Positions 18,982-45,900 of a DNA stretch of 64,000 bases are shown here, in pieces. The notes under the pieces were generated by a model. It was given only the letters and a program-made list of their open reading frames with translations. It searched no databases and was not told where the DNA came from. Position 1 is the stretch's first letter. Every line of letters begins with the position of its first letter. The DNA is taken from positions 951,825-1,015,824 of the forward strand of contig CAJNDT010000591.1 in NCBI GenBank assembly GCA_905221615.1, in the 5' to 3' direction. The stretch is from Symbiodinium sp. CCMP2592. Lineage: Eukaryota; Sar; Dinophyceae; Suessiales; Symbiodiniaceae. A program made the translations under genes and the position numbers.

Positions 18982-21900
18982 CAGTAATATACACACATAC
19001 GGTTGAAGAAAAGGAAGGCTAAGGCTATGACAGAGACTCTCATGGCTCAGGGTGAAGGGGAGCACATAGAAGGTTTAGGGTTGAAAATGGAGATCTGGAT
19101 CCTTGGTAGCAGTGCTTCTTTAGGTGGGTCGTATGGGGCTTTAGTTGGCTTGTACGGTATCAGTTCAGTCACCAAGGCCCTTACCACCCGCTCGGTGTTT
19201 AGTCGTAAGGGGTTCTTGTGGGGTTTGTCTGGAGAAGGCTAACCTGCGAATGCCGAGCGTTTGGAGCGAACTGCTGGAGGGTATTACCTTCGTGGATTGA
19301 GTGTTGGGGTTGGGCTCGTGCGGCTTAGGGGGCTCAGCTTTGAAAGTCGGGAAGTGCGATCCGACCTTCACAATAGCAACGGGGCTGTTGGAACGCCGTG
19401 CTGCATGTCGTCGTTCCTCTGAACCCCAATTGGGCTCTTCACAGCCATCTTTCCAAAAATCGGCTCTTAAGTAAGATAGTAGACCCCTGCTCAGAACAGG
19501 AGTTTCAGACAAAAAGGGGGCCCTACAGTAGACCTTATAAACAGTAAGGCCTGTGTCATCAGGGCTTCCTAAACCTTCAACACATCCCCCTCCTTGCGTG
19601 TAACGCTAAGACCTACACACCCCTTACCCACACGCCCACGCCCCCCAATCCCCCCCCCCTGTGCCGATACACCCCCAAGGGATACTCCTTGTGAGGAGGT
19701 GTATGACCAGTTTATTCCCTAAGGATCAAAGGGCAGCGCCCTGCACACGGACAGTAGTTGTTTTGTCTTGCTACGCAAGGAGAGCTTGTCTTGTCTCAAT
19801 ATGGTAAAACCACTGTGAGCCAATGGGCAGCGGAATGTATATGTATGAGCATGCAGCCATTGCTGTAGGTACCTGTTAGAGCTACCCCTTTAGAGGTTTA
19901 TGGTTTCAAACAGACACTAATTTTCTTTTACCGGAAGCATGGCCGCACATTCACACATATACTATTATGCCCACTGTCACAGTTGCGGAGTTTTGGACTC
20001 ATTATAAAAACAGCATATTGTTTTATGCTATGTATAGCACTGAAGTACACTGCTGAGGACACTCCACTCATTTTGCACACACATTCATGCATGTTGGTCA
20101 GAGAGATCATCTGTACAAGATCAGGTCTGGTGATGTCCTACTACCGAATTATGCAGCCATTCATTGTGCTCTTGTTAGAGCCTTACGATTCACTATTGTG
20201 AAACTCTGAGAATTTTACTATCTCAGATTCGGATCCAGGTTTGGATCATAGGCTCGAGCATAGACGTTCGGATGTGGCTCATCCGGGTCTGAGTGATCTT
20301 CTTCGGAATTTGAAAAGATTCCGAGTAATCTGTTCTCAGCCCTGGTGAAGGCGGCATCTGCAGTATCATATCCATGGTTGGATGTTGTCGCCTTTGGCTC
20401 GGCCTTTGGAGCAGCTTGTGAGCTGACTGGAGTTGCCTTGGCTTTTGCCGGTTGTGGCTGCTTAGCCTTTGCCCGTTCAGCCGTTCTTCTTTCAAGCTGT
20501 CCGTCTGAGGACGCCCATGATCTTTCACTTTCATCTCCTGAAGGAGATAAGGCGTGGGCATAAAGGCTATTCCAGTACTGTGCTGCAGAAGGAGTTAGGA
20601 CTTCTTCATTGTCAGATTCTGACTGGTCTTCCTCAGAGCTTTGGTCGTCAAAGAGTGTCTCGAGGACATTTTTGAGATTGTTATTTCTTCGCTCTATCTC
20701 TAGTGAGGAATGGACCAATTGGTTAAAGACTGTCCTTGAGTCCTTCAGTGCTGTTAGAAGGATTTCCACTCTGGATAGAGTATCTTGGATGGTGTCAAGA
20801 TGTTCCTTTCTTTCCTCCTTGTCTCTCTGGATAGAGCCTCGCAATGCTTGTGCGATTCTGAGGAGGTCTGTGTATTTCGCAAGAGGCATAGTTACCGTTT
20901 GATTGTCATGTATGACAGTTGTTTCGTCGCCGCTTAAGTTCCTGAATAGGACTTCCACGATTGGTAGGAACTCCGTGCTCCACGGTTCCTCTTCATCATA
21001 TGTTTCTACGTGCTGTAGCACGCGTTGTGTAAACTGGCCGGCTGCTTCTACCGTTGCATCGATAGAGCTGACGTGTCTTGATACTATGTTTCGGCACGTA
21101 ACGTTAATTGCCTGGCCTTGATTGGCTTCGTCAAGTGCAGCGTCTGCATAAGTGCAGAGTCCACTGTTGTGGGCTTCTCTGGCTGCCTTTCGTTGAATAC
21201 GCCGATTTTGACCTCCTCTTCTGGTAGGACCTTTTGGTCTCGGAGGAGCAGAAGGTACTGTTCCTTTCGCCTTTGGCGGAGGACTCTTAGGTGGAGGTGA
21301 TATGTTTGCCTTGTTAGGCCCTGGTGGCATTGCCTTGGGCGCTGATGACGATGCGGCACTTGAGAGTGCAGATGTACCTCTGGCCTTTGCCGAGGATCCC
21401 TTGGGGATCGATGTATAGGTAATCTGCATGGCTTCCTCGGCCATTTGTGCATGCAAGGCATCCTGGAATAATTGTGTCATGTGAGGAGTGTTACTTGCAT
21501 CATCGTAGGTCTGGAAGCGCTCAATGTCTCTTTCGGTGCCACGTGGTCGTGTATCACCTCTTTGGAAAGGATCATTCCTGCGAATCTCCGCAACTTGTAC
21601 TGCATGAAGGCAGTTTTTGCACAGCACCTTCCTGCAAACATCTCTTGCTTGCTTAAGCTGGTAACAGCTGTCTGAGAGATGGTAGACTTCGCTTCGGGAA
21701 GTATGCCAAATAGGTCGCAGATCAGTTGTTTCTCCGGAATTGACCCTGTTGGGTCCTAAAGGTTCACGCGTCTGCGGTTCATCCTCGGGTTCGAGGAATG
21801 GAACTCTTTGGTTCGCTGCTGCTCTTGATTTTGGTTGTTGGCGCTCCATACATCTGATAGGAGGCCTGGTAATCTGCTTCCACATCCAGTGTAAGCCCAT

Positions 21901-24900
21901 TAGCAGCAGGAACACATTCCACGTGATGCTGAAGACGGAGAAGTCTTGCTCACTGGTTAGTGAGTCTGGAAGTGAAGTTTCATCAGTCTTGGTAGACTCT
22001 GCGTTTGCTCCACCTCGGTTGCGGTGTCCGAACCAGCCCGACAACCCCGCTGCTGTAGCAGCTGTTCTGAGTGCCTTGCCGCTCGGAGCAGACGGTGGAC
22101 GCGATGCCTTCCTTCTTCTTCTCCGACTGGAGGATTCGTCCTCTTGTTCCTCTTCATCTCTCTGAGCAGACATCAAGTTTGATGTTTCTCTTTCGTGTTC
22201 TTCGATGTCACTTTTTGTTGGTGACGGTTCTTCTTCTAGTCCATCCAGCTCTTCCAAAGACATGTTGAGCTTGTCAACAATATTGGTTCTTTGAGGCCTG
22301 GACCTTGATCTTGGTAGATCTTGTTGTGAAGAGGACGATGATTCCTGGTTCCTTCTTGGAGGAGGACCTTCAGGCTCGCTGGGACGTTCAGGCTGTGGCC
22401 ACTCCCAGAATCTTCCATATCTGTGATGGCTACCTGATGGTTGCGATTTGTCGTACCAGCTGTTGCCGGATGAGTAAACGAATGAATCGTTGTAACCCCA
22501 GTATTCAGCATTACGCTGCTTGTAAGCCTTTCGCTTGTCAGCGATCTTCTGGACCTGGGCATCTGACCGGTTGTGTTTCCCTTTTGTAAGGATTGGTTGT
22601 ATCGTGAAGCCCAAAGGGCTGTGCCAATCTTTGTCAGTGGGACTCAACCATAGGTCAAGGTTAGAAAAAGTTGAATAGTACTGCTTGACTGAGACAAACA
22701 GACGGATATCAATATCCCTGTTGTTGTTCGTGTCCTGCCACATATCTGAGATTCGTTCCCAGTATGTTCTTTCAGCGGCAGGTGTGACCTCTCTTGGACT
22801 AGGTGACGCCGTGTGCGGCGTTTTACTCCAGTCAAGGATATAACTGTTGATACAGTCAAGGTCAGCAACTTTCTTCGCCGGGTCCGCCGGTAGACGATCT
22901 GCACGTGCCAGTCTGTGCTGGTCGGAGTTGTTCAAGCAAAGATGTCGCACTTGTGAGTGCCTTCCTGCTATTCTGTTGAATGCTGCAAGTTTCTTCTCCA
23001 GGTATAGAGAAAACAAACTGTTTCGCGGGTGAACGTCTCCACCTTTTAAGGTGAGCCTCGACGCAATATTATTGAGATCTCCCGCTATTACATCCGGTTT
23101 AAAAGGGAGAATCTCGTTGAGGAACGCGTTCACCAGTTCGCGTCTCTGTTCTTCCTTATGAGTCATGAACGAGTTGAAATGGACGATCGCGATGGTGATG
23201 ACCTTGTAAGGCCCTTTTGTACACCACATCTCGTCAAGATCGTTCGATGCTTCTTGTGAGAAGATCTCTGCGTATGTCTCAAAGTCTTCCTCTGGTGGCT
23301 CATCACCCTCGACATGGCCGTTCCATTCACAGAGAATCGGCGGAGGGTCGAGGTTCGACAGTGTCAGGCAAGCCTCTGGTGAGAGGTAAGAGCCATCAGT
23401 GGGTCCATCCTTGTCAGGATTTTTGCCCTTGAGCGGGTCATATCCGATAATCTGCATGAACTCGTCTCTCGTCATCCTTTGGCCAGAATTTGGGTGGACC
23501 CATTCTTTTGCCTCTGGTATGGTACTGTGGTACCCGAATGTGAGGCGGCACACCGCACCGTGGCATGCCCACAGTCGCTTCTTGGTACCACCATTCTTAG
23601 GCTTCATTGTTCGATGACGGTAAAAGTGGTGGACGAGAGCGATGTCTGTCGTTGGGTCACCCTTGACTCCGATGTACATTGAGGGTGCCTCAGGCTCCTT
23701 GGGAGGAGAGTGGATTAGCATCCCTCTGTATTCGTGTTTTCGCATGGTTGCGATTGAGTACTCTGACGCAAGTGCTCCTGCCTCGAGTACGAGGGTAATA
23801 TGAGCTGAATTGTTGAAGCACATGTCAATAAGAGGGTGATAATCGAATCCCTTCTCAGGTTTGAGCTTCTTTTTGGGATTCCCTGCGGGCACCGGCGCTC
23901 GATCCATATTTCCCCAGTTGAATACCACTAGATTTAGCGATACGCTATCTGGGTTCGAGCCTTCAATGTATTCTCTCTTCTCATTGACACCGGCCATCCT
24001 ATTGCGAACTATCTCGTAATGTGCATCGAGCACCAGTTTGTCTTCGTGGCCAGTAAGAGTGAGAAAAGAAGCCGGGTGGCTTGTTCTAGAGTCCTTGATG
24101 TTGATGTGACTCTTGTTAACGCTCTTATATTCCTCCAGGGTTGGAGCCTCTGTGGAGCTGTCATACGTATTCGGAGGATTGTTCCTGATATCATCAAGGC
24201 TGTATGGATCTACGCCTGGATGGTCCTTTTCGAACATGCTTCTTGCGTGTTCGCAATACATGTTGATTTTCTGGACTGCCAAATCTACGTCCTCATGTGT
24301 GAGGATGGCCTCGTATAAAAACTGACGCTCATCTGAGGTCATTCCTGCTCTCACTTTGGAGGTCTCAAGGCAATCGATTGGCAAGACGCACTCGCACATC
24401 CGTTGTTTACCCTGTGGGGTAAGTCGACAGTCTGCACATACAATCGTTCCACAGGAATAGCAAAAATAGCCTGTAGGCTGTTTGCAGAGATCGCAGAGAG
24501 GATTGTCTGGTCGAGGCAACATTCGTATCCTTTGGTTAAGGCTCATGGCTGTCCTGCGTACTCCTACAAATCTCTCCTTGTTAGGAGGCGCAGAGGAGGA
24601 AGATGCTGACTCTCTGGGTCTGTCCCACTCCTCTTCGTCAGGAGCCTCAGAATCTTTGATCATGAGTGGACTTCGGATTTTTCGATTCCATCGACTAACC
24701 CAGATTCTTTCTTGCATTTCCTGTTGCATAGCCGGGTTAGACGGTGACTTCGAAATTCGGTGCTTGGTATTTTCTCGAATCCGAGCGCTGATGCGCTCGT
24801 GTTCTCTTACGAGATCTTCCTCATCAGCAGGTTCCTCGTATTCGAGGTTGAGCTTGCTTCTGTTGACTCGATAATAGGTTTCTGTTTCAGGATCGAAGAG

Positions 24901-27900
24901 AACTAGGAATGTTTCCTTCTCCTTTTTAGGAGATTTTGGTTTTCTTGGCTCTTCGTCTGAACTCTGAACATATTCTGTTTCAGGCTTTGGTTGGTCAAGT
25001 TTGACCTTCTCAAGTTTCTCTGTGATCTCTTTCGTGGGAGATTCTTTCTTCTCCTCTGATGCTGCAGGTGCAGAGTTCGTCTTGTGAGACGGATTAACAT
25101 CAACTCGGAGTTCTGAGGATGACGAAGATTTTGAGCTCTTTTCGCTCTTCTCGCTCTTTTCGCTTGATGCCGTCTCAGCGTCTGATTCTTCGTCACAATC
25201 CTGGTTAGGATCTGGTTCCTCAGGTTCCGTCTCTGTTCCAGAAGATTCTTCCTTGGGAGGAATTACGTTGGCAGAAGTATCCTGGACAGGTTCTGGAGGT
25301 TTGTGACCTGTCGTTATCTTAAGAACTTCAGTGGCGCTTCTGGTGCCGTCGGAGTTCCAGAGCTGTCCCATAAGACTGTCCGGATCCTTGTCGGCCTCGG
25401 CCTGCCGGGCGAGCTTGGATCTCGGGTGGATCTCCTTTGCAGTAGTTTCCGTGTTCGGAGGTACTTCACCTGCAGAAGCGGTTTGCTCCTGGTTTGGAGC
25501 TGTGTCAGCCTCTGTATTTGGCAGAGAGAAAGACTTCTTGTGAGAAGATCTAGCCTTGGGAGGCTCTGGAGGCAGATTTCGCCTTGACATCTTGCGAAGT
25601 GTCGATTCGATCTCCTTGCCGTAATTTGAGCACCATTTCTTAGACTCGTAAGTCGCTGACGGCATTTGTTCGGAGCAGTGGTCTGCCCACCATGGTCCGA
25701 TGCTCTTGAGCTCATCGTATTGCGATGATACCCAGAGTGTTTCAGAGGGTGCAAATACGGCGCTAAGAGTACGGGCATGCACTACATCTGGTGTAGCAAA
25801 CATCCCCGCTTGCGACTGCCACATGTTTGTGACTTCGTTCACTACGTTATTTGCGTCGAATACTAGGAGCAGTGCCTTGTTGGCACGCAGCAAAGTCGGA
25901 TTAGGATTCGCCAGGTTTAGCGATGAAAACTGAACAGTGTCCCTGTTGGAACGACTGTTTTCATTCACGAGAGCTTGAAGACCTGGTGAGGTCACCACCT
26001 GAGATAGGAGATTTGATGGTACCAGACCATGCCTCAGGATTGAGGATAATGCCTGCAAGTCCGTGGCATGCATGATGTAACAAGGGTTGTTCTGTCGAAC
26101 AAAATCTTCCATGCCTACGGGCCTTGGCGCGTTAGTGGAGAGACGCTGTGCATGGGACTGCACAGGATTGCTCCCCGTTGCCATGAAGTCTGAGATGGTC
26201 ATGTGTGACCTTGGCCTCTCTTCTTCAGGATCTGGTTCTTCAGCTCTTGGTAGAGTTCTTCGTGAACCGTGTCCTCCCACTGCCGAGAGGTAAAGTTTGG
26301 TCATGGTCATCACATTTGCATCCTGTGGGATGGTAACGGCGGCAACTGTTGTTTCAGCCCTGCCATCTTGGTCATAAACCATAGTGACCACGAACCTGGA
26401 CTTAGTGTTAAGTAAAACACCAAGCGCGATCTCTTGTGGTGAATATTGTGCGAGCTGTGCATCGGCCAACCTGGACATGTCCAGAAGATAATTGTGTTGG
26501 CCAGCGAAGAGATCTTGGCGCTGATTCTGAAGGTGTCTTGTTGAGTGTGCTAACCATCTTCCGACCTTGTTGGTCTTGGAGAGAATGTGGAAGCACATCT
26601 CTGGTGAGAGACCTGTTACCTCTACCAGTCTTGGCACTGAGGAGGAATAGTCATATTCTCCAGATGCATCAAGACTCACACATTGTTTTACCTCCTGTGG
26701 GAGGCCAGTCTGAAGGTGATGTGCAAGCATCGTACAAAACTGGCGTGGATCACGAGCGTGATTGCCCACGTTGTTATCCCAGTATAAAAGGGGACTGTTG
26801 TCCCATGGTCCTTGGAGGACTCCTTCGTAGAGCCTGACTCCATGTTTGGAGATTGGAGTGAGCTTTGCTCGACTCGCATGGCCACATCGTAAGATCAGGT
26901 CAGCAAGATCTCTTGGACGCGGATTGAACACCTGTTGGTGACCCATGTAAATGTACGGAGGCTCGTTATTTTTCTCACGTTTGTGAAATCGGTGTCCACC
27001 GTGTTCGGTGTGTCGACGTGATGCGTCCCGACGAGACTCGGGGTAAGAGCTATCCATGTGTGGATGTCGCTCATGGTACGCCTGTTCTGCCCTTGGTAGG
27101 GCGTATCCATCACGGCTACGGAAATTTGATCGTGTGCTCATTACGGCACGATGACCAAACGGGATCAGGAATGCTTGGTTAGCTCAAAAGGCTAGTTGCT
27201 GTGAGGCTCGAGGCTGAAAGCGGCTGCGGATGGTATAGAACATAGAGTTCTCATGAACATGTCTGATCTTGATGAAAACGCAGCTTGCAGACACAAATTT
27301 TCTTTTAGACGAAAAACAGTCTAAATAGAAAATCCAGCACATGGTTGTGCTACCAGCAAACAAGACTACCACCATGTTCCTTGGCAGTAAAATAATCGGT
27401 AAATCTCTGTTGAGACATCAATTCCAAGGAAGGCTACCGCTGTAGCGGCATTCCTAAGGTTGTCTATAATCCACCGAACAGTGAAAGCTTTATGTTGAAG
27501 GAGTTCACGGAAGGGTGGATGAATGTCTGTTTCTGGTAAGTTTCCTGTTTCCAGAGCCTTGATAAGCTCATCAGGTTGTGCCGAATGCTTTGTTAATGCA
27601 TCAGCTAGGCAGTACTTCGAGCTTACATGAGCTAGATCATCTAGAGATCCAGAGTTGGATTCCTTACGAAGCATCTGTATAAGATGGTGAGTTTCCTTTT
27701 GCTCTGGAAGGTGTGTCGTGCCTGCTGTTGTCACAAGATTGTTCGCATCTGTTCTGATATGTATAGGTACGGTCTCTGATGAGAGATCTGCCCAAAGTCC
27801 CTTGAGGAACAGGCAGGTACCAAAGCAACGCATCAGTGCGTTAAGCTCTGCCACTGTTGTGGACATTGTGGTTGTCGTAATCTTGTGAGACTCATAGTCC

Positions 27901-30900: not shown

Positions 30901-33900
30901 AGCCTGCTGTAGTATGGGTTCTCAAGAACAAAGTAACGTCCGAGCTTCATTTGGTGGTCTGCGACCGATTCACAGAATTTTAAAACAGAAAGTCTCTTGG
31001 CAGAGCCTTTCTTCCACTGTGAGTACCAGCTAGACCACTGAGAATGGTCAGGTGACATAACAATAATAGTAGGTTCTTGTTCCTTGATGATCCTAAGAAG
31101 ATTGGAGCGACCTTGCGGTTGCTCAAGATCTAGACCGCTACGCAAATCGACTGGCTGACCTACTCGAAGACCTGATAGGGCAGCCTTGTGACTCATGCGG
31201 GGAGATCCGCCGTAGAGTTCTAGAAAATCAATCTTCCCAGTACTGGTGACCTGCCAGTGACACTCTTGATGTGGAATCGTTAGGTCTGTCGACTGCAGGG
31301 AAGCATCGAAGGTGACCATGCAACTTGCGTGGTCAGAACCTTCTGACGTCAGAGTTTCCTCATCAGGCGCGAGAGGAATCTCCACATCAGATGTTATGTC
31401 ATAGTTTTTCCTCAGTTTTGAGATATTGACACGGACGATGCGTGTTCCAAGATCCACACCTACCATGGATCCTCCGAGTTCGGAGATCACCTTACCTTTT
31501 AGCCAAGATCCATGTTTGGACCCAGTGGATCCAATCTTAGACTTATCTTCTGACCAGTAGAAAACCTTATCTCCCAAAGAGAAAGGTCCTTGGGTCATTG
31601 ACAGTCTGGCTGCAAGATCTCTACGCAGATCATCAGATTGGCGTGCCTCTTGGTCAGCCCTGTTGGCAAGCTCCTTAATGGCTCTCGCAGTGACTTCCGT
31701 ATCAGTTGGATTACCTGTCAACTGATTGGGATCGGCGTTCTCTGGTGTGATAACATCTCGAGGACGCCTTCCGAAGGCCATTTCCAAAGGAGTAACTCCT
31801 CCGTAGGTAATCGAAGAGTTTCTTTCCTTAACCCTTTGCGCCGAACCAGAACCACAGGGTTTAGATCAACAAGGCTTATATGAAAGGAACCCAAAATCTC
31901 ATTTTTGTATGTGGTTGGCTTTATTTGTGTTTAAAAGTGTTTTTTTGTATTTAAAAGTATTGTTTTGTATTTAAAAGTTTTTAAATAGGTTTTTTTTGTG
32001 TTTTACAGTTGTTAAAATTCTTTTATTTTATTTTTGGTGTAAAAATACATGTTTGTGAATTTTGTTTCTGAGTGAGTCAATTGGCTTCCTGTTGTTCTAC
32101 CTGGTTTCCTGCTGCTGTATGTCTATAAAATTGTTGTTTATTTGTTGTTGAAGTTAATAATTTTTAATATTTAATCTTTTTAAATAGTTTTGGGTTGTGA
32201 TTGAACAAAGAAGGGAGGCCGTAGTGACATGTTGACTTGCCTTGAGATCTTGCCCTTACCCACACTGATCGACTGCCCTTCTCGGTTCGTGGGCACCGTT
32301 GGCCGGGTGTCAGGTTATGAGGCGATTGTATCTAGACCGCCTTGGGGCCAACGTGCCAGGGCAGTGGCATATGACACCCGGACAAATGGGCTAAAGTGCC
32401 GGGTGGGGCGGTTGAGGGGTTGTTCGCAGCCGTGCTTACAGCCTTGAAGGGGAGGCCATCCATGCTTGTCACGTTAGTTAGGGAGCCTTGCGACTTGGAT
32501 CGACAGAGGCAGAGTGCCACCTTACCCACACGGATCGACTGCCCATCTCGGTTCGTGGACACCGTTGGCCGGGTGTCAGGTGTTGTCGATGGTACATGGA
32601 CCGCCTTGGGGCCAACGTGCCAGGGCAGTGGCATATGACACCCGGGCACATGGGCTAAAGTGCCGGGTGGGGTGGTCCAGTGGTTGTGGCTTTTTTATTT
32701 TTCTCCCAACCAGGAGGGGAGGCCATCCATGCTTGTCACGTTAGGTAGGGAGCCTTGCGACTTGGATCGACAGAGGCAGAGTGCCAGTCGAGCCTCTCGA
32801 GGTTGCCTTACTTAAGTCCCTGCCCCATCGGGGTTGCTCCCCACACCGTTGGCCAGGTCTAAGTGTTCGGTTTGAATCCAAGCCTAGTGAACGCCTTCTC
32901 TTCCATTTCCTTATCTCCCATCGGTCTTCATCGGCTTCCAGCCCATCGAGAAGTGGATGCCAACTGCTGGGATCTCAGCATCAGCTTGCTTCAGCTACTT
33001 CCATTATTATGTTACAGTCCTGGCACCGAGGCTCATGACGAGGATCCTGAGGACATGCTGCCATCGCAGAGGACAAGCTGCCTTGCATAGTCAGTGAGCG
33101 TGTCATGTATCGCAACTTGCCGCTGCAGCAGTTGTGCTCGCTGTTGCCCTGCGTAATCTACTATAGTCGTGTTACAGCTGCTCTGTCTATAGTCTAAGTC
33201 GTAGTAGGCCCCCCTGCAAGCCGGCAGATGTCGTCGATGTCGTGGAGTGACAGTGAGTATGTGGGCTCGGACTGGGTTCTGGTTGACGATGAGGGTGCAA
33301 GTACTGCGGGCTCGGTCGCGGACAGTGCTGACGACGATGATTATGTGATTCCGTTCGACGAGATGCTAGAGGAGTCCTTTTCGCCATTGTGGATGTTTCT
33401 GGATTCTAAAGAGCGTGGGCAAGTCTTTCGAGCAGCCTTCCATATCAATGAACAGATCATGTTCGTACTGTTTCCGAGACTTTTGCGGGATTTTAGGTAA
33501 GGCAGAGTGCCAGGAATTTTATATTTCAATGTGACAGACGAATGGCTGTCGTCACTGAATCAATGATTTGTCGTGTTTGTACAGCCTCCGCGACCGTATC
33601 ACGGATCTTGGGGAAGGCAGAGTGCCGGGTTTGCGTGTGTTTAGGGGATTTTGAATGCGACGATCTAGCCAGCAGAGCTAGACTGTCCGATTTGAGACCT
33701 CAGCGGTAGTGTGCGCAACTTGGATTCAAAACGGTTACCCAGCATGACATGCTGACTACACAGTGCCGGGTGGCAGTGATGTCCTCAGGACCCTGCTGTC
33801 TCCGAGGCTGGCTGCCTGCCTGCATAGTCTGTCAGTGAGTTGACTTGCACCATACATGATCGACATATGCCGGCCAGAGAATCAAGCGATTCATGCATAC

Positions 33901-36900
33901 TGATGTAACAGTAGTAACAAAATGTTACATATCATTGATTAATGTACTATATAGTGATGCATTAGTCACTGTTAATGTTTTAATCGGTGGACAATTGTGT
34001 GCTCGATGAAAGCAGTGATGCCGACGACCTGCTCTGTCTCTAGTCTAAGTCGTAGTAGGCCCCCCTGCAAGCCGGCAGATGTCGTCGATGTCGTGCAGTG
34101 ACAGTGAGTCTCGGGACTCGGACTGGATTCTGGTTGCCGATGAGCGTGCAAGCACTGTGGCCTCGATCATGGACAGTGACTACGATGATTATGTGATTTA
34201 TTTCGACGCGCTGCTAGAGGAGTCCTTTTCGACATTGTGGTTCTTTCTGAATTCTGAAGAGCGTGGGCATGTCTTGCAAGTAGACTGGCATAGCAATGAT
34301 ATGATCCTGCACGTACTCTTTCCGAGATTTATGCAGGATTACAGTGAAGGCAGAGTGCCAGGAATTTTATATTACAATGACGTGCGAGACGAATCTCTGT
34401 CGTCAATGATGAATCAGTGATTCATCGTGTTTGTACAGCCTCCGAGACCGCATTACGGATGTTGGGGAAGGCAGAGTGCCGGGTTTGCGTGTGCTTAGAG
34501 GATTTTGAATTCGACGATCTAGCCAGCAGAGCTAGACTGTCCGATTGGAGACCTCAGCGGTAGTGTGCGCAACTTGGATTCCAAAAGGTTACCCAGCATG
34601 ACATGATGACTACACAGTGCCGGGTGGCAGTGACGTCCTCAGGACCCTGCTGTCTCCGAGGCTGGCTGCCTGCCTGCCTGCCTGCATAGTCTGTCAGTGA
34701 GTTGCCTTGCACCATACATGATCGACATCTGCCGGCCAGATAATCAAGGGATTCATTCATACTGATGTAACAGTAGTAACACAATGTTACATATCATTGG
34801 TTAATGTACTGTATAGTGATGCATTAGTCACTGTTAATGTTGTAATCGTTGGACAATTGGGTGCTCGATGAAAGCAGTGATGCCGACGACCGTTTCAAGG
34901 TGCTCAGGGAGTTCCGAGGCAGAGTGCCAGACTTCTGCTGATGACCATCAGAATCAGGCCAATCACATTGACCTTGGCAGTGATTACTGGAACGAAGACG
35001 TGCAACAACTTCGGTGGAATTGTTTACACTGTGGCAGATCAGCTGCCGACTATACCACCGGGCTCCGAAAGATCCAAAGGGCTGCACAATTGGATCAACG
35101 AATCAAATTGGCAGTTGAGGCCATCTCAGATTTCGGAGATATGGATATGAAGTTGTACAAAGCATGGACAGGCCAGACAGATGTGCTGCCTGGGTCGATC
35201 CCGCCACCTCGGCCATGCCAGCATGATGTCGAGACGTGGCCCATGGATGATGTTTTGATTTACGACCATCCCCAGTGGCAACTGTGGCAGTATTGGTTGC
35301 CCGATCCGATATGACCAGCTCCGGGTCAAGCCTGACATTGTCATCTCTATGAATGCAGATGACAGACATCGGAATTTTGAGCCATGGGACTGGTATCAGT
35401 ATTTGGCGAATTGTGGACCGTTTGGCACTGCACATCTTCGGTATGGTGGCTGGGATCAAACACATGCCAATGACTTTGATGCTGAACAAAGAAGTCATGA
35501 GTTCAAGACCATTTGGCGCCGACTCATTTCAGATTTCAGAAAGATTATGATGTGCTGGCAGCGCTCAGCAGAGGAGTTCAGCCAGAGTCAAAGGCAGAGT
35601 GCCATCAAGGGCAAAATGATGGGCAAGGCCAATGGCGGCAGGGGCAAGGGCAAGACAATCAGCAAGGGCTACAGCGGCCCCTGTCAGGTTTCCAATCACA
35701 TGCAAAGCAAGAAGGCATCGACGAANNNNNNNNNNNNNNNNNNNNNNNNNNNNNNNNNNNNNNNNNNNNNNNNNNNNNNNNNNNNNNNNNNNNNNNNNNN
35801 NNNNNNNNNNNNNNNNNNNNNNNNNGCTTGCATGCCGATGGCCGGGCATGGGGGCGCTTTGGGGGACCGTGGAAGACGGAACCGAACGAGGACTTGGGGC
35901 CAACCACCAGAGCGGACACCTGGTGATGACAGCCAGACACATGGGCTAACGTGCTGGCTGGGTCCGAGCTCGGCACCCGAGTGTCCCCCTTTGCAACATG
36001 GGAGGCCAAATATCGAGCAGAAGTACAGTAATTAGAGTGTCAGTCGAATCTCCTCAAGGTTGCCTTACCTAGCTGGATTTTCTGCGACCTCGGATCGTGT
36101 TGTCCGGGCCAGACTTCCAGGTTCCGAACAAAGAAGGGAGGCCGTCCGTTCTTGGGACATGGTTGTATTATTGAGCAGAGAACCTTGCTCGGCTTGCTGT
36201 TCGGTTGTGTTTGTCACGAGTGCCAACATGTTCAGAATGGGGTTTGGTGTATGTTGCTCTACCAAGCGGCAGCTGCATGCCCGCCAATTTTGGCAGCTAC
36301 CGACACACTGTTGGCCGGGTGTGGAGCGAGGGCAAGGGCACTGGGGTCCCGCAGTCTAGGGGGGGGTTTGGGCCAACGGCCAGCGGGCATCTGGCTATGA
36401 CATCTGGACACATGCGCTAACGTGCCAGGTGGCCCCTCCCGAAAATGACGTAGCCTCGGTGACCCAAGCTCTTCCATGGGAGGCCGAAGAATGGTGTTGC
36501 TTGCGCATAGTGTTGAAGTCCAAGTTGTACTTTTGTATCTCAACGATTGCAGCGAACGAATCGATCGCTCCTTGACTTGCCAGCTCAGGTGTGCCTGAGT
36601 CCAGCTGTGACGAGTGGCAGCTTCGAATCAATCGGTTGTACCAGGAGAGAGCTATCACTGCTATGCAGCACTGTCGACAAATCAACTTCATCGCCGATGG
36701 GTCTACTCACAGCACCAGCGATTGTCGTGTGACAGTGGCTTGGGCGAATGAGATTTCTGCTGCAGTGTTTGCACCCATGCAAGTGATGAAGACTGGACAA
36801 GTTTCTCCACAAGACCGGTTTGACGACGACCTGCTTCTTCAAATATCAAAGCGAAAGAAGCTGGAAAGGATTGCTGCATTCAGGCAGCTTCAAGCGATCA

Positions 36901-39900
36901 GTCACCAAATCTGGATTTTGCACAGAGGGCGAATGGATTTGGGCTCTTTCAAGATCGCCCCCTCTCTTGGGCAGAGGCCTGTGAAAAGATATGAAAGCAG
37001 GGTGGGTTTCCAAGTTGGAAAAGAAGACAATGACATTGACCGCTGTTTTCAGTGGTTGAGGGACAATCCGGATCCGGCTGAAGGCAGAGTGCCAGAAGGC
37101 AGAGTGCCAGAAGGCAGAGTGCCACCAGCTTTCCTCATGTCTCCTTTCTGAAGACAATGTCTGAGGATGGAGAGATCACAAATGTGCTCCCCGTCTTGCC
37201 AGAGTCAGAGAAGTGGTGGCTGAACATTCCACTGCTGGTCTTGGGCCTTGAACAGGGCAGCATCGGACTTGCTGGCATGGCCTATGCTATGCGTGAAAAC
37301 ATGATTCATGTGAAATGTGACAAGATTCACAGGGCCATTCGAGATTTCAAAAACAGCATGTCGAGATGCCTCAAAGGACTCTTCCTGAAAGCACAACTTC
37401 ACTCATCTTACATCTTTGCCCTGAATTATAAACCCTTTGGAAGTGGTGGTTTCTACCAGCAGAAGAAGGAAATGCTGGCGAGTTTTGTTTCCTGCACATC
37501 ACCGAGCAGAAGCTTGTTGTGGGACGCTTTTCGAGATACGATTGCCTATGACTTAGACAGGCAGCTATCCGGTGACGAGCATGAGATTGAACATATGCTT
37601 GCAAATGTCGAATCCTTCATGAAGAAGGGCAGCTTGGTGAAATCCTTCAGATGGTTCAGCTGGAACCAGCTATGTTGTGAGCAACTTCATGAGTTTCATG
37701 TCCTCAAAATGCTGCTGGCTGATCATTTCGGCGAAGATCAATCTTTCAGCCCTTGCTCAAGGGAAAGACTCAGCCTGTATTCAAACTCGGCGAATACACA
37801 ATCGGGCAAGGAGCTCTTCGAAGGCAGAGTGCCAGAGTCCGAAGGCAGAGTGCCGGACTCTGACAATGGTGAGAGGCAGGAAGATGCACTGGGTGATTTG
37901 CAAAAGCTGTCACAGGCTGGTCGTGCCACTGATCCACGGAAAGAACTCAGCTTGTTGAAAGCCAGCATGGGGTGCTTCAAGTTGGCATACTATCTCATGA
38001 CAGAAGACCTTTTCGATCACTCCAAGATATTGTACAAAGTGACCGAACCGTTGTGGACATGGTATGGGAAACAAGTAAAAAACGTTAAATCGCCGCAGGA
38101 TGGTCGAGGTTATGCCGAGTTGATGACAGTGAATGATGCCTGGAAAGCAGACAAACATTTGTTGCAGATTGTCTCCAACCTGCAGAAGACCGAGTTGGGG
38201 AAGGAGCATCTGGATACTGATTTACACGAGCCCGCAGAAAAAATCATGATGTTGAGCTTGCATTTGCTGATGAACAGGGTCTGGACTTGCAGTCTTTTTC
38301 ACTTCCACCAGATGCCTATGCGGGATTGCTGTCACCTGATGCAGAAATTCGGACGATCACGGCTTTGAAGGCAAAGGGCCATCACACATCACTCTTGAGG
38401 TTGGAGTCGACATTGGCACGGTCCACTCCAAGTGTTCATGCCCGGCAACTATTCACAGACCTGCAAGTTGGAATCAGCCATCCTTCGAGACTTTTTCTGG
38501 ACACATTGGAGGCACAGGGATATGAAGTGGCGCCTCCGGGGTCAGAAGACGTTGTCGTGGATGATGTTGACACAGAGCAGGACGGGGAGATGGAGGATTC
38601 TGTGCCTGAAGAAGCAGATGACGGTGCCGGAGTTGGTGACATTTTGTTAGACGGGCAAGAGGGCAGCGTGCCAGCTCAAAGGACTGTAACAATATCGGTA
38701 CCAGCATGCCCTGCAACCCACCTGCTGAGTGTTCTGGTGCAGACGCTGCCAGACAACAAGATTGTGGAAGATGTGCACAACAAGATTCGTAATGATTCTT
38801 TGTTGAACAAACCCCGCAAGCAAACATACTCCACGATTCAAACTGTGATCGAGAATTCAAACGTCTTTGAAAGCCGTTCAATCAGGCATCCGGCAAAAGT
38901 CAAACGGGAATATTTTGAAAGGGAGTTTTGGAATGTGGACAGGAAGCGCCAAAAGTTGTGCTTCAGAGGATGTGTCCACAAGCTGCAGTCACAGTATACC
39001 GAGATTGTCGGCGACAAGACATGGAACACCCTGTCAGAAGAGACACTCGAACGAGCATCAGCTGCGTGGTCATGGCTAATTCACTACAATGATGCAAGAC
39101 TGGCATCTCAGCATGTTCCCTTGCGTGCTGGGAAGTTTAGCAGCCTTGCAGCCCCTTTGAAGATCGTGAACCATGTCTTGGATTTGACATGCTATCTCTC
39201 TCTTGGGGCAAAAACCTGGGCTGCTCTCATGTGGCCAGTGGTCCAGCATGAGGACCAGTCGACAGGAGAGATATATTTTGTTTTGAAGGCAGAGTGCCCG
39301 GATGGTTCCAGCGTCAAGGCCTGCTGGATTCATTTGTATGAGCCCCCGTATTGGGAAGTCATCGAAACAGAGGCAGTCTTCTGGAATGGCTTCATTTGCC
39401 TCCGTCGTTGTGCTACAAGCTCAGTGTCACTTCTATCCTATATGTTGCAGCATCCCAAGTGACATGTTTTCATTTAGGATTCTGTCAACTGTCGACCCAT
39501 ACAGTAAATAGTACAATAAACTTATATAAGTTTTGCTGTGTTTGTTTTTGCTGACTCGACTGAGGGAAATGTCACAAGCATGTCGGACTCTCGCAGACTG
39601 CCAGAATCTCGCCGAGCATGTGATCTCCCAGACTGGAAACGTAGACGAAAAAAAGCGAAAGGAGCTGCCACGAATGCGCCGTCCAAAGCTCATGAGCCTG
39701 ATCGCTTCTCATCACCTTCCGGAAGATGAGGATTTCATGCGCAAAATTGAGGCTATGTATTCGACAGCCAAAGATTCAACAGAGGATGAGGATGAGGGTG
39801 ACATTATCATGGGGGACTTTGTTGATGAGCTGGTTCTTGACGACCTGCTTGCTGAGGACAAACAGGAATTTAAAATGGTCTCAGACGCAGTCAGAAAACG

Positions 39901-42900
39901 CAGAATCAAAAGGGTGCATCAAACCTGGCAGGCCATCAAGACGCAGCAAGAAAAGGCCAAGGCAAAGGGCAAGGCCAAAGCAAAGACCAAAGCAAAGGCC
40001 AAGCCACAGGCCAAACGGAAAGCCAAGAGAAAGATTTGTCGCCCACGTATGTTGCCCAGGAAGCAACCCGCGCCTCCTGATGAAAGTGTTCAAGAGGGAG
40101 CAGAAGGCAGAGTGCCAGCACCTCCTGCTGAGGTGCCGGTGGAGCCGGAGCCTGATAATCACGTGGAGGCCGCGGAAGGCAGAGTGCCAGCCCCTCCTGA
40201 TGAGATGCCGGAGGTGCCTGCTGCAATCCCTGTCCCAGAGCCTGATGATCACGTGGAGCCCGAGGAAGGCAGAGTGCCAGCCCCTCCTGCTGAGATGCTG
40301 GAGGTGCCTGCAGTGCCTATCCCAGCACTCGAGCCACGGGAGGTTGCAGTCCGTGGCCCCCAACATCAGCGGCGGCCGAACCGTGTTGACTACCAAGGGG
40401 TATGGAGACCTGTTCAATGCCCGGAGTGTCCCAAGATAGCTGGTGAGATGAAGTACGACCCGAATCCTGGTGGCACTGACAAAGCAAAATGGTTTCTCCG
40501 AGTTCGTGTGACAGACGGCGGTCTCTTGGAAAGATTCGGAACATTTGTTATAGCTTCGCTGTGGTTGCCTGATCTGCTGTGTGTTGTGTCACATTACATG
40601 AACCCATGTGTGTCTGGCATTGAAGGCGAGTGGAGCCACCTCGTACCCTATCACTGGGGACGTGTGGCTTCCAAGATGACAGAAGCTCAGGCCAGACAAC
40701 ACGTCATTGACCATAGGCCCTGTTGTGGCCCGACCAGGAGGCCTGGCAACAACTAGAGGATTCATCCTGCGCTGCAAAGAAAAGTTGTGTGTCTGTCTGT
40801 GTGCTTGCATTGATGGCAGCGGGTCCTGCTAGATTGGAATGCGTCCGAGAGACTGTGTGTTTCTGCTTGGGGAAGACGGATTGCGAAAGCATGTTCGCAT
40901 TTTCCCACATGTGGAATTTGTCACGTGCAAGCACATGGACAATCATTTCGAGTGCCACAACCCGGAAGCCGCACAAACTAGCACATGTGGTTTGAAGCCG
41001 TGCGTGCTGGTGACTGAACAGTAGCCGTCCAGAGCAATGCATTTCGCCCCGATCGAACGAGGAGAGTGTTTCTTCAGAGGCGAGCTCTCCCCAATCTTGA
41101 TCAAAACCGCTTGCGAAAAATTGGCCAAAGCGCCTTACCAGTGGAAACCAGCTGAGAGATGGAATGAAGTTTATGACGACGTGCCTTGGGAAATCATGGT
41201 TCGCTACCTGCGTTACTGGCCACGTATTGGCTCCCGCATTACAGGAGGCCTCAGGCTTCTTCGACGGTACCAAGGCCCCTTCCCGAAGTTTTATCAGGTG
41301 GGTGAAGGAGAAGAACCGCTGGAGTTGCCGCGCGTTTCTCTCGTTTGTGATTTTGTTTATGTTTGGAACGACGAAGATGAACAACAACGGCAGTTTGTCC
41401 TTCAGATGAAACACCTCTCACTTGTTGCCATCCTTCTCGGTGGTCCGGGGGAACTTCCTGACCTTGATGCTGGAGCAATACCTTTGACCGACCAGCTTTG
41501 TGCAAAGTTGGGGTGGCAATAATTAATGGATCTTGATGCGGGAAGGCAGAGTGCCAGCAGCTGGGAAGGCAGAGTGCCAGACGTTGTCGCGTCACCCAGC
41601 TGTACCCTGCTTCGCCTGCACGTGATTCGCTTGACAGTGTGGTCAACGCAGAAAAGCGCAACATCCAGCAGTTCGTAGCCACTTCACGTGATTTGTGCAT
41701 CCCTACTACTATCAAACCCTAAAACTATGGCACTCTGCCTTCTAGCCCCAAACCCTAAATACTAAAGACCCTGAAACTCTAACCCTAACCCTTTCATGAC
41801 CCTCAAACCCTAACACTATGGCACTCTGCCTCTAACCCCAAACCCTAAATATACTAAAGACCCTGAAACTCTAACCCTAACCCTTTCATTACCCTCAAAC
41901 CCCTAATACTATGGCACTCTGCCTTCTAACCCCAAACCCTAAATATACTAAAGACCCTGAAACTCTAACCCTAACCCTTTCATTACCCTCAAACCCCTAA
42001 ACTATGGCACTCTGCCTTCTAACCCCAAACCCTAAATATACTAAAGACCCTGAAACTCTAACCCTAACCCTTTCATTACCCTCAAACCCTAACACTATGG
42101 CACTCTGCCTGCTAACCCCAAACCCTAAATACTAAAGACCCTGAAACTCTAACCCTAACCCTTTCATTACCCTCAAACCCCTAATACTATGGCACTCTGC
42201 CTTCTAACCCCAAACCCTAAATATAATAAAGACCCTGAAACTCTAACCCTAACCCTTTCATTACCCTCAAACCCCTAATACTATGGCACTCTGCCTTCTA
42301 ACCCCAAACCCTAAATATACTAAAGACCCTGAAACTTAACCCTAACCCTTTCATTACCCTCAAACCCTAATACTATGGCACTCTGCCTTCTAACCCCAAA
42401 CCCTAAATATTAAAGACCCTGAAACTCTAACCCTCACCCTTTCATTACCCTCAAACCCCTAATACTATGGCACTCTGCCTTCTAACCCCAAACCCTAAAT
42501 ATAATAAAGACCCTGAAACTCTAACCCGAACCCTTTCATTACCCTCAAACCCCTAATACTATGGCACTCTGCCTTCTAACCCCAAACCCTAAAGACCCTG
42601 AAACTGTAAACCCTGTGCCAGGTCTTCTTCATCCTCGTCTTCTTGGAAAAAACCTTAAAAAATGTAGTTTTTTTTTGTGTTTTAAAGTTTTTAAAAATTT
42701 TAAAAGTTGTTTAAAGTCTTTAAAAGTCTTTCAAATTCTTTTTAAAGTTTGTAAAAGCTTTTAAAAGCGTTTAAAAGTCTTTTAAAGTATTTTTAAAGCT
42801 TTTAAATGTATTTTAATGTTTTTAAAAGTCTTTTAAATATTTTAAAAGCCTTTTCAAGTTTTGAAAAGTCTTTTAAAGTTTGCAAAAGTCTTCTAAAAGT

Positions 42901-45900
42901 TTCTAAAAGTCTTTTAAAGTCTTCTAAAAGTTTTTAGAATGTTTTTTCTTGCATTTGAAAGTTTTTAAAAGTCTGTAAAAGTCTTTAAAAGCCAACTCTG
43001 TCGAAAAAGCCCTGTGGATCTAAACCTTGTGGTTCTGGTTCGGTGCAAAGGGGCAATGATTCTTGCCAAACATGCTTGGCGAACGAGGTTGCCATACTTC
43101 ATGGTGATTCCGTTATACTGCGGGTCACCATCCTTCAGGATCTGAAGTATGAGCTTAATCTGATGCTTCAGCAACCTTACAGCAGCTTCGTCCCTGTTGG
43201 GCCATGGTGTTCCAGGTCCTGTTGCCACAGGCTTGATATTCTGCCGATTGTAATAAGCCTCCATTTTTGGAGTCATGAATGCTTGATCTCCAACTACAAC
43301 CTTTGTGTTGATCTGAAATTTTTCAAAGTAGTCATTCATAATAGACATTGTAGTATGTTCTTCTTTATCCTGGACTACTTCGGCAGTCAACAAGTTTGTT
43401 GCTCCATCATAGATAATAAGAAATACTAAGCGACTATCCTTGCCGGGAATTGGAAGCTCACCGTGATCTACGAAGGTGAGATCACCGAAAGTCTCTGATC
43501 TTAGACCAGAAATCTTCGCTCTCGAAGGAGCTCTCACATGTTCCTGGCAGGCTGAACACTTTTTGACCAGTTGGTCATATATCTCGTAGATCTCCTTTGG
43601 GATCTGTAAGGCTTTTGTGCGTCGCTTGAACTGATCCGTACTCATATGACGGTGCTTAAGGTGAAGCTTGTAGAGTTCTACAGGGTCCTTAAGCTTCTCA
43701 TGAATCCTGCGAAGAGCAATTGGAAGAGATGGCGAAGGTTCTGCGACAATCTCTTCACCTGTTGGTGAGTCTGTGCCAGGAGCCGGGTATTCTCTTGACT
43801 CAAGTGGTCTTACCTCCGTCCCGTCATCAGCTCCTGGGACTGTAGACTTCTCTTCAACAGGAGGTTTGTCCGCATATTTGCGGGTTTTCTTCAGAAGGTT
43901 TTTAAGACCCTTTGGAGTCTTTATTTTCGCAGATGGAACCTCAAGTCTTTCTTCTTCTGGAGGTTCATGCGGTGCAGAGGATTCTGCAGGTTTGTCTCTA
44001 GAGCCTGATGATGGTTCCGATGGTCCGGAAGGCTCAGGAACATCTCCAGATGATTCTGGTGGATCAAGTCTCTTGGCAGATGATTCTGCCGGATCAGATG
44101 GAAGAGGCTTCCTTTTCCCTGAAATCCTCTTCGGTGGTGGATCAGCTGCTCCCTCAGGTGCTCTGTCACAACCCTTGAGGTACGTGTGAGCCTTTTTCTG
44201 TCCGGCACAGGCTGGACATCGACCTTCCGGTATCCTAACATAAGGCTTATTGGCTCCTAGAGCAGTCTCCGTCGCACGGAACGATGTACCTGACTTAGGA
44301 AGGTACTTCCTGGTGGAGGTAAAGCCTAGAAGGTCCAATACCAAATGGTTATTGGTACTAATCGGAAGAGGGGTTTTATACAAACCGAAAGCTTCACACG
44401 TTGCTAGGTCAGCTGTGGGACTACACTCGAGAGTCATTCTTAAATTTCTCATCTGTTCAATGGAGAACAAGATGGGGACTCTTCCCTGATCCAAAACTTC
44501 TATGGTTGTATCTCTTCTTGGAGTTGTGTTAAACCATAGAGTTACACGCTCCTTGATAAGAGCTGTTTCACTATCTGCGAAAGAGAACTTCGTGTTCGAA
44601 GGTGAAAAAGTGAAATCAATCATGCCTGGGGCATGTTGCTTCATGGCCTTGATAAGCCTGTTCACCGCATAGCGGGAACCCATAGCCCTAGTACAACCAG
44701 AGTCAAGAATGACAAAGGTAGGGCTCTTATCAAGATTGATCCTCTCGGTGAGAGCAGATAGGACGGTGTGCTGCAACGGAAACACTGCTGTTGCAGTCTC
44801 CACACCTTGCCCCTCAGATGGTTCAAAAACCTGGGGCGCGTAACTCACTGATGAGTTGTACACGGGTTCTTGGTGCGCGCTCGGATCTGTGCCTCTACCT
44901 GATGATCCTGCTTGATTTCTTCTCTTCTTTTTTCGTGTCTTTCTTCGTGAGGCTTGTGATGCATAGTATGTATAAGACGTTTGATCGTCATAAGCGGCAT
45001 AATTCCAACTGGAGTCAGTATAATAACTGTCCTCATACCATGAATCCCAGCTCGGTGCGGTGGAACTTTCATAGGCCTGTGGATATCCAGTTTGGTCTCC
45101 TTGTAAGGAGGCAGACTTAGCTGTATCCTTACCTTTGCCTTTTGATTTTGTACCCTTGAAGGAGCTTCCTTTATCTCCTTTGTCCTTTCCTTTTCCTTTG
45201 CCTTTTCCACCCTTTCCTTTTTCCTTTCCTTTACCTTTACCGAAATAGCTGGAATCATTTGGATCATGTTCTGCCTGGTTGGCTCTCCCTTTTCCGCGGT
45301 ATGACCTAAAACGGCCACGTCCTTTTCGCTTGCCACCCTTTGCTCTTCCCGGTGATCCGGGACGCATTCTTGGTCTTCTTCCCTTTTTGAATCTCCTTGC
45401 AACGAAGGCCTCATGGTCGTCAACTGTCCAGAAGACAGCTTCTTCATCCTCGGCGGCAAGAAAGCCTTCCTCAAGGGTGTCTTCGTCTTGAAGCCAGAAT
45501 CCATCGACTCCGTCGTATTCACCCTGATCGAGGATGAGGAAGTTTCGACCTCCGCGTTGGCGGCGTTGATCTCTCCTTCCATGGCGGTCCTTCTTGTGAG
45601 AAGTGTGCCGAATATTGGGATCCTGCAGACCAGTTCTGGTCGTTGAGAACTGATCGAACATGGTCTGCCGTACTATAGGGTACGTGTAGGTCTCAATTCG
45701 GTAACCTTGGTTGGTCAATGCTGTTACCAACCTCTCACGTTGCATCTCATTTAGGTCGGACTGCACTAGGAAGAGGAGAGCTAGGAGATTATCATTTAGA
45801 GGAAACGCTCTTCGATGATTATCAAGGCGTTCCTTGTTCCATGTTTCGAAGAAACGTGCGGCGTATGTGTCTCTCTCGGTTGCATCCTGTAGGCGCATGA

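Follow-up and report, generated by a model that had tools for sequence, protein, structure and literature searches.

What could a protein of 2,307 residues be doing inside a retrotransposon with long terminal repeats (LTRs)? The question is raised by a 64,000-nucleotide stretch of the genome of Symbiodinium sp. CCMP2592 (assembly GCA_905221615.1, contig CAJNDT010000591.1, positions 951,825 to 1,015,824; hereafter the window), in which a Ty1/copia element carries a third open reading frame (ORF3) between pol and the 3' LTR. An earlier note, made from the letters of the window alone, had pointed to nuclease-like and Tpt1-like segments in this frame. We conclude that this LTR retrotransposon has captured a third frame with enzyme-like features. 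As to its function, we tentatively favor the reading that ORF3 serves a Symbiodinium Ty1/copia family as an accessory gene and encodes an enzyme-like protein that acts on RNA ends.

An intact third frame inside a copia element

The element spans 27.2 kb in total, or ~15.9 kb without a DNA transposon that is nested in it. Read along the minus strand, on which all features of the element given below lie, it consists of an LTR, a primer-binding-site-like sequence (TGGTAGCGGAGC), a gag-protease-integrase part, the rest of pol with an RVT_2 reverse transcriptase (RT), a 224-nt spacer, ORF3, a purine-rich tract and the second LTR. ORF3 (20218..27141, 2307 aa) is a single open frame that begins with ATG, is intact and has homologues. 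Its neighbours are the pol frame that encodes the RT (27366-31787) and the 3' LTR (19660..19908, which pairs with the 5' LTR as a repeat). At the base composition of ORF3, the chance of 2,307 codons free of stops is about 10^-48. The pol frame (1473 aa) comprises the integrase end, a linker, the RT and an RNase H identified by eye, and its RVT_2 match reaches E=8.9e-18 and 65.2 bits, against a Pfam cut-off of 31.6. The frame, the LTRs and RVT_2 all agree with the earlier note, which had described an intact frame of ~7 kb between pol and the 3' LTR of a copia element. The copia element itself was thus correctly recognized there, but the nested 11.2-kb transposon that splits pol was overlooked.

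Homologues of ORF3 were collected from three protein searches, one of which scored the best 7,996 candidates by shared words. We found at least ten related proteins (P0001-P0010), and the five that are named are all from Symbiodinium, under three names: CCMP2592 (two proteins), S. microadriaticum (two) and KB8 (one). The relatives are predicted gene models and some are chimeric. For instance, P0003 and P0004 extend into host-like sequence that is unrelated, and some parts are present more than once in P0009. Homologues mainly outside LTR elements, which the earlier note had named as evidence against its proposal, were not seen as far as the gene models themselves reach: three of these ten predicted, partly chimeric models (P0003, P0006 and P0009) carry gag or pol of the family in the same gene model. 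In Pfam scans, one of the ten relatives had an RVT_2 match and no relative had an RVT_1 match. ORF3 lies intact inside the LTRs, and it has long, divergent relatives, some of them beside gag or pol of the family.

Two of the relatives are close to ORF3 over parts of their length. For P0003 the identity is 89.9% over 682 positions, with 72.6% over a gapped stretch of 212 and 96-97% in two short pieces; for P0004 it is 99.0% over 500 positions, with 69.7% over a gapped stretch of 76 and 98.4% over 61. The others are more distant, with 56.8% identity over 1,850 aligned positions for P0001, 57.1% over 1,513 aligned positions for P0002, and 62.4% (P0005), 65.2% (P0006), 54.3% (P0007), 61.8% (P0008), 68.1% (P0009) and 53.4% (P0010) in the longest match. 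Shorter matched pieces of P0008 and P0009 fall to 33-45%. Overall, the divergent relatives are 53-68% identical to ORF3 in their longest match, and such long and open yet divergent sequences speak for selection on ORF3 and against a young passenger.

Two of the gene models hint that ORF3 may evolve faster than pol or may be exchanged between elements. P0006 matches the window in RT blocks with 69/72, 15/15 and 107/121 identical positions and in linker blocks with 30/34, 20/32, 6/35 and 5/12, and P0009 matches it in gag blocks with 35/37, 17/26, 14/15, 11/16 and 2/10, comparisons that have to be read with the slow evolution of RT in mind and with the fact that both models are spliced predictions. 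The RT blocks of P0006 and the first of these gag blocks of P0009 are close to those of the window, the linker blocks and the remaining gag blocks less so, and identity in the longest ORF3 match is just 65% and 68%, respectively. Three scans of a collection of viral contigs found no relatives of ORF3, and the same collection, scanned with E. coli KptA, YafD and XthA, gave none either. Sequence searches of the PDB with ORF3 and its pieces returned just weak zinc-finger or chance matches.

Enzyme-like segments of the ORF3 protein

Profile and motif comparisons support, short of proof, the presence in the ORF3 protein of a Tpt1/KptA-like NAD+-binding ADP-ribosyltransferase (ART) lobe, a B-box and an EEP phosphoesterase-like domain. 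The Tpt1/KptA-like lobe is assigned to aa 346-470 (25732..26106), from a PF01885 match below the cut-off, a profile comparison and ordered blocks. Pfam PTS_2-RNA (PF01885) was the top family for a 530-aa piece of the window ORF3 (E=0.006) and matched three of the five members scanned. A profile built from aa 340-480 of four ORF3 sequences was compared by hhalign with one of 15 KptA proteins (15 of 17 KptA loci, two partial E. coli copies being excluded) and scored 41.5, while the best of 300 shuffled profiles reached 27.3. In neither control set did a shuffle attain the real score (0/100 and 0/300). Three blocks of the NAD+ lobe occur in the expected order, HGT at aa 352, VDA at 421 and NGVWLT at 439, and were equalled by 0, 23 and 0 of 500 column permutations, respectively. 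The string HATDLQ stands at aa 358. A second hhalign match places a possible, weak Tpt1-like RNA lobe at aa 125-225 (26467..26769), collinear with the first.

The EEP-like segment, at aa 1066-1516 (22594..23946), is assigned by profile comparison and by three of six catalytic blocks. Aligned with hhalign against nine bacterial EEPs, a profile of six sequences (ORF3 aa 1055-1520) scored 34.0, and the best of 300 shuffles 22.2. In this control, columns with <=25% gaps were kept and the remaining gaps filled with X. The unfiltered control behaved differently: 1/100 and 6/400 column shuffles (same seed) scored above the real 39.5, at 132-135. One such high-scoring shuffle that we inspected had aligned 14 columns at a gappy end, as an artefact would. 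When the EEP profile was searched with hmmsearch against the single ORF3 sequence, it gave 12.4 bits, versus 5.3 for the highest decoy (339 of 1001 decoys were reported). The motif strings NWGN (aa 1075), VLEAG (1118), VHFNS (1320) and GDLNN (1354) are all present. Within aa 870-1560, the best places of the E, H and D-x-N blocks are 1113, 1315 and 1351, in EEP order, and their scores were reached by 0/500, 6/500 and 0/500 permutations, respectively. For stretches past aa 1430 the block test omits P0004, whose gene model lacks this region. Should the segment be a true EEP domain, sequence likeness makes an end near aa 1516 (LDLWLSP..DKDWHSPLGFTI) more likely than one at 1445, where it had first been placed.

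Between these two segments lies a B-box zinc finger (PF00643) at aa 876-925 (24367..24516). It scored 24.9 bits in a 691-aa piece, above the gathering cut-off of 24.1, and 21.5 bits, below that cut-off, in the whole ORF3 protein, and it was listed for three of nine members at E<=10. This stretch is also the sole one with a pLDDT of ~70 in the AlphaFold model of aa 870-1560. An Ada-like Cys/His site had been suggested as well, but the stretch concerned (~1812-1852) matches no family.

Conservation along ORF3 is uneven. Compared with P0001, the hydrophobic segment is 77% identical, the EEP segment 68%, the linker at aa 1511-1725 61%, the B-box 60% and the ART segment 58%; the lowest values are those of the first linker (49%, or 49-51% when P0002 is included) and the N-terminus (38%). 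The pattern therefore follows the proposed domains only in part.

RNA ends and the competing explanations

Processing of RNA ends is our best guess for the activity of ORF3, and we favor it because the Tpt1-like lobe and the EEP-like domain both fit the chemistry of RNA 2'/3' phosphates. The ORF3 product would act on RNA ends, either in the cytoplasm or within the virus-like particle. The EEP part would serve there as a hydrolase of phosphodiester or cyclic-phosphate ends, and the ART part would modify or remove 2'-phosphates or ADP-ribosylate RNA. Such end chemistry would protect or restore element RNA that has been cut by host RNases. ORF3 probably has a capped message of its own for translation, which splicing or the addition of a spliced leader within the 224-nt spacer after pol would generate.

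There is some precedent for this proposal. CCR4/ANGEL proteins belong to the EEP superfamily. One CCR4-family protein, ANGEL2, hydrolyses 2',3'-cyclic phosphates (PMC9525292; here and below, papers are cited from the portions of their text that were available). KptA occurs in a few RNA-virus polyproteins, and a role in RNA processing has been proposed for it (PMC9503650). Enzymatic ORF3s are found in LTR elements of bdelloid rotifers (PMC5408684).

A narrower version, in which ORF3 joins a Tpt1-type NAD+ lobe and an EEP phosphoesterase into one enzyme for RNA-end healing or RNA ADP-ribosylation, is rather doubtful. If it is true, element RNA cut by host RNases to leave 2',3'-cyclic or 2'-phosphate ends would be repaired or marked. 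Counter-defence as described for phages and as proposed for a few RNA viruses would then also operate in an LTR retroelement, and the healing module would possibly be exchanged between elements with similar pol. We also considered that an EEP/Tpt1 pair heals a half-tRNA primer by creating a 3'-OH on the cut primer and set this aside, as the primer-binding-site-like sequence begins with TGG and fits an ordinary CCA 3' end.

Several results weigh against an enzyme acting on RNA ends. For the Tpt1-like lobe, the PTS_2-RNA score of 17.1 bits is under the cut-off of 26, and the KptA profile searched with hmmsearch against ORF3 barely tops the best decoy (6.4 vs 6.1 bits, with 312 of 1001 decoys reported). 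The R-x-x-VHL block of the NAD+ lobe was not found (325/500 permutations). The match to the RNA lobe (aa 155-196), although collinear with the NAD lobe, is not significant alone. Among the blocks of the RNA lobe, LD..G was reached by 62/500 permutations, and LRH, KKRF and GHS failed (100, 173 and 117 of 500). The catalytic tetrad of Tpt1 is Arg-His-Arg-Arg (PMC6333775), and it is not complete in ORF3, where the first Arg is replaced by His141 (Tyr in the relatives). By alignment, His142, Arg195 and Arg400 are present, so at most three positions are kept; the first three positions of the tetrad rest on the weak RNA-lobe alignment, and the fourth was not recovered by the block test. That one Tpt1 arginine appears to be lost points to a reaction that departs from the canonical Tpt1 chemistry.

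The EEP-like domain meets similar objections. The FNWGN (329/500), D (430/500) and terminal D..H (113/500, best place inside the searched interval 1504) blocks are not above chance, and over aa 870-1560 the best places of the N, D and terminal D..H blocks lie elsewhere. Among nine members scanned there was no Pfam EEP match (PF03372, PF14529) at E<=10. AlphaFold models of aa 870-1560 (six sequences, mean pLDDT 32.9) and aa 1-530 (five sequences, mean pLDDT 32.8) both have low confidence. Finally, conservation to P0001 is no lower in the linker at aa 1511-1725 (61%) than in the ART segment (58%). EEP and Tpt1 are therefore to be read as supported resemblances whose folds are unproven. The earlier note's Tpt1/KptA-like segment is supported by the profile comparison (0/300 shuffles) and the ordered blocks, and not by the Pfam threshold or a full tetrad. 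Its EEP motifs in order hold for E, H and D-x-N and fail for FNWGN, D and the terminal D..H.

The alternative that survives best is that ORF3 is an envelope-like or membrane-targeting protein. Its hydrophobic stretch around aa 1740, together with the C-terminal part, would then bring the particle to a membrane, and the segments that look like enzymes would be relics that have lost activity and are used for binding. The stretch in question (aa 1730-1756, 21874..21954, a possible membrane segment by hydropathy) is the part best conserved to P0001 (77% over aa 1726-1760). Moreover, ORF3 stands between pol and the 3' LTR as env-like ORFs do, several of the catalytic blocks look degenerate, and the P0001 model begins ahead of the shared start, with a hydrophobic stretch. 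Nevertheless, the top 19-residue hydropathy in ORF3 is 1.43 (from aa 1734 on), which is low for a membrane helix and makes this stretch a weak membrane candidate, and the EEP segment is better conserved (68%) than the first linker (49-51%, P0001/P0002), so we regard this alternative as doubtful.

We consider it unlikely that ORF3 serves in cDNA or integration steps, with its EEP domain nicking or trimming DNA (LTR ends or target) like the AP-endonuclease-like EEPs of LINEs. The EEP-like blocks and profile match would fit such a role, and in Symbiodinium retrotransposons that carry DNMTs, Exo_endo_phos is shown as the endonuclease domain (PMC5890265). However, the presence of a Tpt1-like lobe alongside it suggests RNA, and the element has its own LTRs, primer-binding-site-like sequence and integrase-like segment (a weak match, E=0.036). 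The same features led us to set aside target-primed integration, and they leave the target nicking proposed in the earlier note, a LINE-type nick, unneeded.

It is likewise unlikely that both enzyme-like segments are resemblances by chance or composition, ORF3 being a dinoflagellate-specific protein of unknown fold. This would account for the uninformative AlphaFold models, for the failure of several EEP and Tpt1 blocks and for the fact that the B-box alone reached a Pfam cut-off, in a piece scan, but it is at odds with both profile comparisons (0/300 shuffles each) and with independent blocks that fall in the correct order.

Least probable is that ORF3 is a captured passenger without a role in transposition that is open merely because the element is young: the LTRs differ at one base and pol of this copy is broken by the nested transposon, but the frame is still open in homologues 53-68% identical in their longest match (1,850 aligned positions in P0001), homologues are recorded under three Symbiodinium names, and the long homologues contradict the earlier suggestion that the frame is too recent to have decayed.

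Relation to known elements and other features of the locus

Like other Ty1/copia elements (Pseudoviridae), this one has LTRs, a primer-binding-site-like sequence and an integrase-like segment upstream of an RVT_2 RT, and it differs from them in its added 6.9-kb third ORF with enzyme-like segments and in its size of ~15.9 kb without the insertion. The RVT_2 RT and the LTRs rule out a LINE (an EEP-type non-LTR element). With Sireviruses, plant copia elements of which some have an env-like ORF, it shares an additional ORF located between pol and the 3' LTR and a second upstream copy of a sequence resembling a polypurine tract (PPT). A relation of Sirevirus type had been suggested, but we reject membership. 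Sireviruses have copies of a AGGGGGAG PPT between pol and the 3' LTR (PMC2829016), and neither the linker nor the spacer nor ORF3 contains a copy of this octamer. Sirevirus LTRs hold many CGG-CCG motifs, whereas the 250-base repeat of this element has one CGG and two CCG. Its LTRs are also just 249 bp long, and its extra ORF resembles enzymes, not env.

Other replicators come closer in one respect or another. Bdelloid rotifer LTR elements carry an enzymatic ORF3 with GDSL or DEDDy (PMC5408684), but these are other enzymes in another host, and the available text of that paper mentions neither KptA nor a phosphotransferase. SymbioLINE and SymbioDIRS are Symbiodinium retroelements with captured enzymes, Exo_endo_phos among them; they differ in being LINE and DIRS elements that carry DNMT, and the Copia superfamily is reported there without a DNMT domain, and the ORF of the present element is not described in the portion available (PMC5890265). 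KptA-bearing RNA viruses are, like this element, RNA-based replicators with a KptA-type ART inside a large protein, but they are positive-strand viruses rather than retroelements, and the available text never mentions a retroelement or retrotransposon (PMC9503650). An EEP domain in an LTR-type element is not wholly unprecedented, because Exo_endo_phos domains are reported as sporadic in Kuafuorterviruses (PMC11673190).

Among the matches listed in open-licence literature, in the portions available, we found no copia element with such an ORF and no description of an NAD-dependent RNA-processing module in LTR retroelements. Chen et al. (2018) reportedly dealt with heat-activated copia elements of S. 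microadriaticum, and that work could describe this element family. If our assignment holds, one element family carries an NAD-dependent RNA-processing module, and it becomes testable whether dinoflagellates cut retroelement RNA and whether the elements answer by healing.

The terminal repeats of the element (19659-19908 and 46576-46825) are identical at 249 of 250 bases, with one mismatch. Their first base is a shared C that falls outside the TG..CA ends, so we take the LTR proper to be 249 bp (19660-19908 and 46577-46825, the latter being the 5' LTR). Runs of C flank the element on both sides, and because the LTRs stand between them the target duplication cannot be delimited. The primer-binding-site-like TGGTAGCGGAGC (46559..46570) lies 6 nt inside the 5' LTR. 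We take it to match the 3' end of initiator tRNA-Met; a search of the window for tRNA genes found none.

The gag-protease-integrase part of the polyprotein (42965..46474, an open frame of 1169 aa) is truncated by the nested transposon. The protease DSG and the integrase residues in it were identified by eye, and the rve match upstream of the RT is weak (14.8 bits, below the Pfam cut-off of 32.6). Between integrase and RT, pol contains a segment (30588-31250) that reads FLELYGGSPRMSHKAALSGL...VMSPDHSQWSSW...FVLENP. In its motifs it resembles a cytosine methyltransferase whose catalytic cysteine has been lost; searches of Pfam, NCBIfam and the PDB gave no methyltransferase match.

A purine-rich, PPT-like 20-mer (19911..19930) adjoins the 3' LTR. 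An internal copy of it, TAAAAGAAAATTTGTGTCTG, lies in the spacer between pol and ORF3 (27288..27307) and matches the LTR-proximal copy at 19 of 20 bases, with a score of 35 versus a maximum of 24 among 200 shuffles. This copy could be a second PPT and second plus-strand start, or could lie near a splice acceptor.

The nested DNA transposon (31825..43059, 11,235 bp) is delimited by inverted ends (45/53 bp) and by a TTCTT target duplication at 31820-31824 and 43060-43064. When we removed it in silico, the peptide across the empty site equalled that of the homologue P0003. Because this insertion splits pol, the present copy of the element is unlikely to be autonomous. Three plus-strand ORFs of the transposon (37157-40756) matched no Pfam family at E<=1, and it also contains repeats spaced ~850 and 278 bp and a 100-N gap. 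Outside the element, a 672-aa frame without a convincing Pfam match lies on the minus strand at 56348-58366.

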